DNA of 64,000 bases from Gemmatimonadota bacterium. Its GTDB lineage: Bacteria; JAAXHH01. The stretch spans positions 1 to 64,000 of the forward strand of contig VXTP01000017.1 of the NCBI GenBank assembly GCA_009837395.1, in the 5' to 3' direction. This document shows, one piece after another, positions 59,074 to 61,740 of the stretch. The notes under the pieces are model-generated. The model was not told where the DNA came from. It searched no databases and worked only from the letters and a program-made list of their open reading frames with translations. Both the position numbers and the translations under genes were made by a program. Each line of letters begins with the position of its first letter. Positions within the stretch are counted from its first letter, which is position 1.

Positions 59074-59655
59074 TCAGTCCACGGTCTCCATCGTCGTTGC
59101 CACTGATTTCAAAAGCTTGTCTTTCATATTCCACACCGTGTAACCTGCGTCGATCAGCCCGGTAGGCGCGTCCTTCCACTCGGCATCCGCGCCGTAGAGG
59201 AAATAGGCGTCCCAGACCATGGGGTCCTTGTGTTCCAGTTCCCCCGACTTTTTGTACCAGAATCCCAGCGCGTTCGCGGGATCCCACATCTGGCTGACCC
59301 GTTTGTCGCTGAACACCTGCTCCGCCGCGATCTTTGCCGTATTGACCGCATCGTTCCTGAGAATCCGCTGCCAGACCACGTAGACCCGGAGATCATCGGA
59401 GGGAAACTTCTTCAGTATCTCTTGCTGCACCGCCCCGGCGCCGCTTATGCAGTGGCCTCAGGTAGGAGAGAACATCACGACGAGGCGGACTTTGCCCGTA
59501 TCGCCGTTGAACGCCTTCTTGAAATCCACGAGGCTGAGCGGTTCCGGGTTGAAGCCGGTGTTGGTGTTGAGTTGGGCGCCGGCCTGGGAAGCCCACGACA
59601 GGGCTCCGGCCAGGATCAGCGCGGTGATCAAGCGGATTCGGTTTTTCATTTTCAT
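59074..59655 (-). CDS. Secreted thioredoxin-like protein with in-frame TGA, probable selenoprotein (UGHC)
   Basis: Two open segments, 59655-59458 and 59457-59074, are in the same frame and separated by a single TGA (59460-59458). Read through, they give one 193-residue protein: a signal peptide (about 1-28, ending AGAQ), a strand VRLVVMFSPT, then TGA-Gly-His-Cys where thioredoxin-fold proteins have CxxC, then ISGAGAVQQEILKKF, the strand LRVYVVWQRIL, and MWDPANALGFW near a conserved C-terminal region. So the TGA falls exactly on the first redox Cys position, and the downstream part is intact without other stops. Selenocysteine (UxxC) explains this best; a nonsense mutation or sequencing error is the alternative. 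A hairpin follows the TGA. The gene ends at a terminator and has no partner in its operon. Confidence 0.8.
59425..59460 (-). promoter_or_regulatory. Candidate bacterial SECIS hairpin after the in-frame TGA
   Basis: Starting 5 nt after the TGA on the minus strand, CTGCAT (59452-59447) can pair with GTGCAG (59430-59425), leaving a 16-nt G/C-rich loop; alternatively CACTGC (59454-59449) pairs with GCGGTG (59433-59428). Both put a stem-loop at the position SelB requires in bacterial SECIS elements. Folding was done by eye. Confidence 0.45.
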
Positions 59656-59767
59656 CGATCCATTTTCAGGTGGTGAACTAAAGCCCCGGTCGTCCCGGGC
59701 CGGTCGGGTTACCTATGATATCGATCTTGCCTGCGGATTGACAAGTGAAATCGTAAACCTTTCGGAA

Positions 59768-59868
59768 GGCGCGGTCAAATCAGGACGGCGCGGTCAAATC
59801 AGGACGGCGCTGCCAGACCAGGCCCGCGCGGTCAGACGCTGAAGCGCACGGTCAGACGCTGAAGCGCA
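59768..59868. repeat. Two tandem repeats at the ychF 3' end
   Basis: GGCGCGGTCAAATCAGGAC is repeated exactly at 59768 and 59787 (period 19), with a degenerate third unit. Then a 20-bp unit is repeated exactly at 59829 and 59849; the second copy contains the last ychF codons and stop (minus strand), and the first is a copy lying beyond the stop. Confidence 0.95.
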
Positions 59869-60925
59869 CGTTGATCACGTCGCCGTCCGCGACGACGTAC
59901 TGCTTGCCTTCCACGCGCAGCACGCCTTTCTCTTTCGCGGCCTGCCAGCCACCGAGTTCGAGGATGGTCTGGCACTCCACGGTCTCGGCCCGGATAAAAC
60001 CCCGCTTCAGATCGGAGTGGATCTCCCCGGCGGCATCCGGCGCCGTGACGCCCCGCGTGACGGTCCATGCCTTCACTTCGTCTTCACCCACGGTAAAAAA
60101 CGAGATCAGGTTGAGCAACCGGTACGAGGCGGCGATCATGCGGCTCAGGGCCGATTCCTCGATGCCCAGTTCGTCCAGGAATGCCACGGTGTCCGCCTCG
60201 TCGAGCTGGGCGATCTCCATTTCGACCTTCGCGCAGAGCGCCAGGGCGTCCAGTCCTTCGGCGCAGTCGCCCAGTTCCGACAGGACGCGTTTTTCCGCGC
60301 CCAGGTCTTCCTCGGAGACATTCAGCACGAGGAGCACCGGTTTCTGCGAGAGAAACCGGTAGCCTCTCAGCCTTTTCTCGTCTTCAGGAGCAAATTCGAG
60401 GTTCCGAATGACCCCGCCGCCCTCGATCTCCTCCTTGCACTGTTCGAGCAGTTTCCATTCCCGCACCAGGTCGGGTTGCTTCGTGGACCGGGCCTCCTTG
60501 GAAAGGCGGGCCAGCCGGCGCTCAATGATCTCCAGATCGGCGATGGCGAGTTCCAGTTCCACCGACTCGAAATCCGCGCCCGGGGAAACGGGCGTACCGG
60601 CCAGGTCCGGGAAGCCGCGCAGGACGTGCACGAGGACGTCCATCATGCGCAGGTCGGCGAGTCCTCCTGTGCCCTGCTGTTCCTCCTGCCGTCCCGAACC
60701 GGACGTGATGCCGCCTATATCGAGGTATTCTACGGTGGCGAAGGTGGTCTTGCGCGGATTAAAGAGACTGGAAAGGCGATTTACTCGGTGGTCCGGGACC
60801 CGGATCGTGCCCCGGTTGGCCGCGTTCTGTCCCGCGTATCCGCCGGTTTCCGCATTGGCCCTGACCAGCGCGTTGAACAACGTGGTCTTACCGCAACCGG
60901 GCAGCCCGACGAGGCCGATCTGCAA
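59852..60925 (-). CDS. ychF: Redox-regulated ATPase/GTPase YchF (Obg family)
   Basis: A 357-residue P-loop NTPase, close to the usual 363. Walker A GLPGCGKTTLFNAL at residues 6-19, YLDIGGI as the G3-like motif (normally DIAGL), and VLLVLNVSEEDLG in place of the NKxD motif, as in the YchF/OLA1 subfamily, which prefers ATP. A coiled coil (about 125-165) and the C-terminal TGS domain (ISFFTVGEDEVKAWTVTRG, GFIRAETVECQ, EGKQYVVADGDVINVRFSV) complete it. It associates with the ribosome and stress responses. Upstream lies VapBC on the same strand. A 20-bp duplication copies its last codons and stop. Confidence 0.95.
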   Translation of the reverse strand: MQIGLVGLPGCGKTTLFNALVRANAETGGYAGQNAANRGTIRVPDHRVNRLSSLFNPRKTTFATVEYLDIGGITSGSGRQEEQQGTGGLADLRMMDVLVHVLRGFPDLAGTPVSPGADFESVELELAIADLEIIERRLARLSKEARSTKQPDLVREWKLLEQCKEEIEGGGVIRNLEFAPEDEKRLRGYRFLSQKPVLLVLNVSEEDLGAEKRVLSELGDCAEGLDALALCAKVEMEIAQLDEADTVAFLDELGIEESALSRMIAASYRLLNLISFFTVGEDEVKAWTVTRGVTAPDAAGEIHSDLKRGFIRAETVECQTILELGGWQAAKEKGVLRVEGKQYVVADGDVINVRFSV

Positions 60926-61057: not shown

Positions 61058-61495
61058 TCAACTGGTTATCGGATCCCGCGTCGGGAGTTCGGGAAAGAGC
61101 GAGAAGTCGCGATCCCGCGTCAGAAGCACTTCTGCCCCGTGTGCCACGCATATAGCCGCTATTCTGGCGTCGTGGACTACTCCACCTATAACGCGGGGAC
61201 GCCGAACGAAGCTTTCCAATATTCCCGGAAAGTCTTCGGTCTCTCCTATCAGTCGTACCGAAGGGGAGGCTGTCCAGGCAGCGAGTTGCCGCCACGACTG
61301 TTCTGGACTCGTGGCGTTATCCCTCCAAATGCGGGGATTGGATACCACGCTGAGGAACTCGTAACAGCAGGGCCAGGGAATGGCCCATGCATCGTTGCCC
61401 TCTGCCAATTCGCGCATTAGCGATGCGGCTGCTTCATGGTGTCTTGATTCGCGACGGTGCGCATAGACCAGCAGATTTGTATCTACAGCGATCAC
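61058..61495 (-). CDS. vapC: PIN-domain toxin (VapC family)
   Basis: A 145-residue PIN-domain ribonuclease. Acidic active-site residues are in their usual places: Asp5 in MIAVDTNLLVYAHR, Glu in CYEFLSVV, Asp in VVHDARIAAICV and Asp in LLTRDRDFSLFP. The start overlaps the antitoxin stop by 4 bp (61492-61495). It is expected to cleave tRNA or rRNA when free of its antitoxin. Confidence 0.93.
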   Translation of the reverse strand: MIAVDTNLLVYAHRRESRHHEAAASLMRELAEGNDAWAIPWPCCYEFLSVVSNPRIWRDNATSPEQSWRQLAAWTASPSVRLIGETEDFPGILESFVRRPRVIGGVVHDARIAAICVAHGAEVLLTRDRDFSLFPELPTRDPITS

Positions 61496-61740
61496 TGGGG
61501 GTCAGGCTTTCCGTAAATGACCTCTCGGAGGTCCTGCCAGGAGTACGCATCTAGGGGGTCTCTCTCTCCGACTTTACCCACGCTGTGGTCGGGTAGAACG
61601 TACCGTTTGCGGGGGGATTCGGTTGAAAGCACCTGCCGTAGACCCTCTTCAACCACTGCGCGTAGCGGCCGTCCTGTCCGGCGTGCGTGTCGCTTCGCGC
61701 GCACAAGTAATTCGTCCTGGATGTTGAGCGTAGTCTTCAT
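61492..61740 (-). CDS. vapB: VapB-type antitoxin
   Basis: An 82-residue protein. The N-terminal ribbon-helix-helix (MKTTLNIQDELLVRAKRHAR, then GRPLRAVVEEGLRQVL) should bind the operon promoter. The C-terminal 35 residues, Asp/Trp-rich with DPLDAYSWQDLREVIYG, would wrap the PIN toxin. It is directly upstream of and overlaps vapC. The DNA just upstream of its ATG (61741-61796) is A/T-rich and contains near-palindromic CATAT/ATATG steps (GCCATATTAGCCATATCATTGCATATGG), a plausible operator. Confidence 0.88.
   Translation of the reverse strand: MKTTLNIQDELLVRAKRHARRTGRPLRAVVEEGLRQVLSTESPRKRYVLPDHSVGKVGERDPLDAYSWQDLREVIYGKPDPQ

Follow-up and report, generated by a model that had tools for sequence, protein, structure and literature searches.

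A conserved in-frame UGA at the redox site of a predicted exported thioredoxin-like protein from a Gemmatimonadota bacterium

Known UxxC selenoproteins and the gene in the window

Thioredoxin-like proteins with a UxxC motif are included among the 119 prokaryotic selenoprotein families of a 2026 inventory (PMC13188914), and a 2025 deep-learning survey lists them together with other families (PMC12013277). The UxxC families listed include thioredoxin (PF00085), thiol:disulfide interchange proteins (PF13098), DsbG-like proteins (NF041057), Redoxin (PF08534), GOS_C (NF045500), SaoT (NF040730) and HUIPC (NF047660) (PMC13188914). The gene described here resembles these systems in encoding a thioredoxin-like protein with selenocysteine (Sec) at the first position of UxxC but differs in that their models miss its family, the exception being a sub-threshold match of NF041057 (Rcas_1661) to one member (E = 0.085). 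Novelty was gauged from the 2026 review table (PMC13188914) and NCBIfam 20. Among the families of PMC13188914 and PMC12013277 that are represented by a Pfam or NCBIfam model, none was matched. Judged by their sequences, the proteins appear to form an unlisted selenoprotein family that occurs in several bacterial phyla and mostly in the Sec form.

The gene is located on the minus strand of a 64,000-nucleotide stretch of contig VXTP01000017.1, referred to here as the window, and occupies positions 59077..59655. Translated with TGA as Sec, it encodes 193 residues. The frame opens with an ATG at 59655 and consists of 65 sense codons, a TGA, 127 sense codons and a stop TGA at 59074..59076, the shared endpoint of every genus homologue first compared. 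The TGA at 59458..59460 (59460-59458 on the minus strand, TCA on the plus strand) is the sole interruption of the 193-codon frame 59655-59077. The original prediction of two same-frame segments parted by one TGA is borne out by translation and by the conserved frame; its 128 codons past the TGA are reached only by counting the stop, while continuation of the frame itself holds. The TGA was also correctly placed where CxxC begins: it takes the position of the first Cys (FSPT-U-GHC) in the pair Sec66-Gly-His-Cys69, and the homologous position is likewise TGA in most diverged homologues. When the window was searched for open frames that one TGA interrupts within 2-3 residues of a Cys, 59655-59077 was the only such frame outside longer ORFs. 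A putative Sec-type signal peptide, MKMKNRIRLITALILAGALSWASQAGA followed by Q, is encoded at 59571..59655 on the minus strand and was recognized by eye from its charged start, hydrophobic core and AGA/Q cleavage site.

The host genome carries the full set of Sec genes. In the host assembly (3.8 Mb, 47 contigs, 95.6% complete), selA matches with 497 bits, selB with 346.8 bits over a joined frame and selD with 255 bits, and selC is present as a tRNA-Sec (anticodon TCA on DNA, UCA in RNA) adjoining selB. The selD match (G000:C24:20204-21151) lies within a 777-codon open frame, and the host SelD probably forms part of a fusion with another domain. In the host (G000:C36:126790-127932) and the rest of its genus, and also in genomes G001 and G014, the SelA match to TIGR00474 begins only at about position 58-72, suggesting an absent or strongly diverged N-terminal part. 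The closest named genomes are metagenome-assembled genomes (MAGs) labelled Candidatus Latescibacterota, with two of seven labelled Gemmatimonadetes; a literature search on the candidate phylum Latescibacterota found almost nothing on selenocysteine. At the profile match cut-offs used, selA was not found in two genomes that bear the TGA, G013 and G088. G013 contains selB, and G088 has neither selA nor selB over cut-off while its congener G358 has both. Since nearly all sampled genomes contain selA, co-occurrence of sel genes and the TGA discriminates weakly.

Conservation of the UGA codon and its hairpin

The in-frame TGA is conserved within and beyond the genus. A single TGA, always at this codon, is found in all 12 searched genus genomes and in G013, a member of a second genus with 46% identity. 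dN/dS values of 0.07-0.30 before and 0.03-0.33 after the TGA indicate similar purifying selection on both sides. Homologues outside the phylum, found with profile A1, carry a TGA at the homologous site within a range of motifs, namely UGVC (G088, G358), UPAC (G172), UPGC (G187, G389, G469, G492-G494, G534), UPFC (G340), UTAC (G468) and UAVC (G532), and G491 encodes two family copies with TGA, one UPLC and one UPGC. Cys forms are confined to one clade and comprise a second gene of G187 (L053, APSCPRC) and the G384 gene (L074, SPSCGRC). The site is TGA or Cys in all homologues with the sole exception of a Ser form (L083, G586:C103:150264-150722; SPTSASS) in which both redox residues are gone; its genome, G586, is among the few searched that have neither selA nor an over-cut-off selB. 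In a tree of 22 members Sec forms are found throughout, with two state changes, one to Cys and one to Ser. The tree places the Latescibacterota branch together with G088/G358, the nearest clade outside the phylum, with a support of 97/97. Separately, all that G001 retains of the gene is a C-terminal third (L048, G001:C102), close to a YchF-like coding region; the active-site half has been lost. The G001 genome has selA and selB despite this truncation, and the fragment was not counted as evidence for Sec.

A hairpin resembling a bacterial SECIS element (bSECIS) follows the UGA. The bSECIS model calls for a stem of 4-16 bp, a loop of 3-9 nt with G in its first two positions, a distance of 16-37 nt from the UGA and a minimum free energy of at most -7.5 kcal/mol (PMC13188914). 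The window hairpin, GCGCCG[GGG]CGGUGC at 59427..59441 on the minus strand with outer GC pairs extending to 59424-59444, fits this model, with a 6 bp stem, a 3-nt GGG loop and a UGA-to-loop distance of 22 nt. Its fold energy is -12.0 kcal/mol for the 51 nt after the UGA and -7.6 kcal/mol for the hairpin alone. A hairpin consistent with this model lies 17-22 nt downstream of the UGA in every Sec member, its loop beginning between +18 and +23 and its stem showing compensatory changes between members; GCACCC[GUU]GGGUGC, GACGGGG[GUU]CUCCGUC and CGGCGGGG[GUU]CCUCGCCG are examples. Such a hairpin is absent from the Cys and Ser members, and the three non-Sec members give p = 0.65 against synonymous recoding. 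In the same comparison the window hairpin singly is not significant (p = 0.12), single hairpins of other Sec members range from p = 0.002 to 0.17, and 12 diverged Sec members combined give p of about 1e-9, a figure to be read with the relatedness of these members in mind. The case consequently rests on the set of hairpins, as the window hairpin alone is not significant.

Pairing and codon usage point in the same direction. In a 17-nt hairpin alignment 89.6% of cells are paired compared with 67.4% after shuffling, the covariation score is 0.70 compared with 0.32 in shuffles (0 of 500 reaching the observed value) and both-sided changes occur in six of seven pairs; the alignment was trimmed manually to the hairpin region and contains related members, which makes these pairing figures indicative. 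At codons +1 to +11 after the UGA, wherever the residue is invariant and its codon degenerate, the 12 genus genomes all use the same codon, an ATA among them. Between the window and G013, codons that keep their residue are identical at 8 of 8 positions from +4 to +12 versus 9 of 29 elsewhere (p = 0.0006).

These observations bear on three alternatives to Sec insertion. A pseudogene or recent nonsense mutation, in which the TGA would end translation and the downstream part would be decaying, is compatible with the two pieces split at the TGA that a standard gene caller would report. Against it stand the single TGA at a constant codon in 12 genus genomes and distant lineages, aligned homologues with no other stop or frameshift apart from the truncated G001 copy, and dN/dS well below 1 past the TGA. 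Conservation across the TGA refutes this reading, whose probability we regard as negligible, and agrees with the original argument that a random nonsense mutation at this position is unlikely. Sequencing or assembly error at 59458-59460 is a general concern as the sequence is a MAG, but the identical triplet recurs in the 12 separate genus genomes, which are independent MAGs, and in more distant lineages, which excludes a wrong base. Recoding of UGA as another amino acid could take the form of genome-wide reassignment (to Trp or Gly) or of leaky readthrough, and readthrough would not depend on having every sel component. Reassignment is rejected because TGA serves as an ordinary stop in the window, where it ends five of six other genes checked and the selenoprotein gene itself. 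Cys at the homologous position in the non-Sec clade and the complete sel machinery with a bSECIS-like hairpin also argue against recoding of either kind, which we consider very unlikely. Encoding of a selenoprotein by the 59077..59655 gene is, by contrast, strongly supported by the sequence comparisons and in our assessment close to certain. The claim that the organism decodes UGA as Sec has likewise gained computational support from the full sel set, the conserved UGA, the Sec/Cys homologues and the hairpin.

A predicted thioredoxin fold with a replaced cis-proline

Searched singly against Pfam, NCBIfam and the PDB, the protein could be assigned to no family. Pfam gives nothing for the window protein at E <= 1 and its NCBIfam match stays below threshold, and among eight members scanned against Pfam and NCBIfam none has a convincing match or one above a curated cut-off, including those of CcmG, TlpA and Redoxin. 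The weak matches of the other members include, besides the Rcas_1661 match given above, one to Pfam Thioredoxin_4, again in a single member (E = 0.003). An AlphaFold (AF2) model built from an eight-sequence alignment, with Cys modelled in place of Sec, adopts a thioredoxin fold (pLDDT 79.8, below 50 over residues 1-31; pTM 0.76) and supports the thioredoxin-like core proposed originally. Residue U66 is located just before helix 67-83 (helix 1), placing UxxC at the helix start in the model. Foldseek matches it to CcmG, a secreted mycobacterial disulfide oxidoreductase, a DsbE-type protein and ResA (top matches include 1kng, 1lu4, 3gl3 and 2f9s) with a probability of 1.00 and E values of about 1e-6 to 1e-4, at 6-24% identity.

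The family shares with the TlpA-like proteins CcmG, DsbE and ResA the predicted thioredoxin fold, export (predicted here) and a CxxC-type motif at the start of helix 1. In contrast to these proteins, it has Sec for the first Cys, is only 6-24% identical in the fold matches listed and carries Trp-Asp in place of the cis-proline. The cis-proline typical of the thioredoxin fold is missing from the family: the site before the third strand is W or Y followed by D or N in each of the 19 members whose sequence extends that far. In the window protein it is Trp148-Asp149 (59209..59214, minus strand), with W148 falling on the proline of the Val-Pro pair of a thioredoxin-like protein from G104 (L052) in a BLASTP alignment. 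L052 itself shows 30% identity over most of the domain and a SATCGHC motif; it differs from the family in its Cys form, its Val-Pro cis-proline and the lack of a UGA, and was left out of the family as an ordinary TlpA-like protein. According to a passage of PMC2757866 that cites a 2007 paper, cis-proline is proposed to keep metals off CxxC, and the position is likewise not proline in peroxiredoxins (PMC2757866).

The protein could also be a distant member of a listed Sec family such as DsbG-like Rcas_1661, Redoxin, TlpA-like proteins or GOS_C, and both the CcmG/ResA-type fold and the two sub-threshold matches (Rcas_1661, Thioredoxin_4) lean that way. With none of the eight scanned members giving a convincing NCBIfam or Pfam match and with Trp-Asp at the cis-proline site and a W/WD signature common to the family, we consider such membership unlikely.

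Metal-gene neighborhoods and possible function

In three lineages family members are encoded beside or fused to MerT or heavy-metal-associated (HMA) domains. The G389 protein is a fusion in one frame (L087 5064-6932, minus strand; same gene in L075) of MerT (E = 3e-8), HMA (E = 4e-12), an unassigned middle domain and the UxxC domain. In G493 a MerR regulator, a MerT-like/HMA protein and a Thioredoxin_3 protein are encoded upstream on the same strand. In G358 the family gene is preceded by an ArsR regulator gene and by genes for a Sec-like glutaredoxin, a MerT-like protein and an HMA protein carrying a UGAU motif, and G088 contains the same glutaredoxin, MerT-like and HMA genes. Within these G358 and G088 loci (L069 529-1453, plus strand, and L049 2756-1833, minus strand), the glutaredoxin gene upstream of the family gene has a TGA before SSC (SPGUSSC or SPTUSSC), and the HMA (MerP-like) gene, which with it flanks the MerT-like gene, has two in-frame TGAs (GMVUGAUP). 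The arrangement is an apparent mer-like operon rich in selenocysteine. MerT and MerP are not homologous to the thioredoxin-like domain, and their genes are not adjacent to it in the window genome.

No mer gene is found beside the selenoprotein gene in the window genome, and none is apparent by eye in several other family neighborhoods. In the window, pyruvate dehydrogenase E1/E2-like genes lie on one side and a YchF-like GTPase gene on the other, both recognized by eye. Short adjacent direct repeats (ggcgcggtcaaatcaggac; gcggtcagacgctgaagcgcac) are present at 59766-59870 in the stretch that separates the selenoprotein gene from the YchF-like one, and two small overlapping ORFs at 61058-61740 on the minus strand resemble a VapBC-type toxin-antitoxin pair by eye.

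Taken as a selenoprotein with an exported, thioredoxin-like role in redox chemistry or metal handling, a reading that we consider highly probable, the protein could act as follows. UGA66 would be decoded as Sec by SelB and tRNA-Sec, with the bSECIS hairpin, starting 17 nt past the UGA, directing insertion. The product would be exported and its divergent thioredoxin-like domain would carry the redox pair Sec66/Cys69. A selenolate presumably activated at the N-terminus of helix 1 would attack or bind a soft electrophile outside the cytoplasm; this could be a disulfide or a soft metal, Hg(II) for example, which Cys69 may then resolve or co-ligate. Our best inference is an exported protein that serves in selenol-thiol redox chemistry or in the handling of soft metals.

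One alternative is an exported enzyme of general disulfide reduction or isomerization that plays no part in metal handling and was recruited into mer contexts elsewhere. It would agree with the CcmG/ResA-like fold and with the lack of adjacent mer genes in the window and, by eye, in several other neighborhoods; we give it somewhat less than an even chance. It is at odds with the MerT/HMA association in three lineages, one of them with a fusion, and with the absence of cis-proline, the residue that the passage of PMC2757866 proposes to keep metals off CxxC. Loss of cis-proline to Trp-Asp together with MerT/HMA partners in three lineages favors metal handling. A role in Hg handling is a lead for the mer-linked lineages and a weaker one for the window, and in the window's phylum general thiol redox work is equally open because no mer gene was seen beside the gene there. 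A more far-reaching and tentative possibility, which we hold to be doubtful, is that the family forms the exported core of a selenium-based defence against soft metals (Hg), having given up cis-proline so that Sec and Cys bind metal directly, with MerT as its partner and, in one lineage, a Sec glutaredoxin and a two-Sec (UGAU) heavy-metal-binding protein as further partners.

Genes of this family are likely split at the UGA by gene callers. Overall, predicted export, the lack of the proline proposed to exclude metals and mercury-transport neighbors in several lineages give testable grounds for a part of selenocysteine in handling soft metals.
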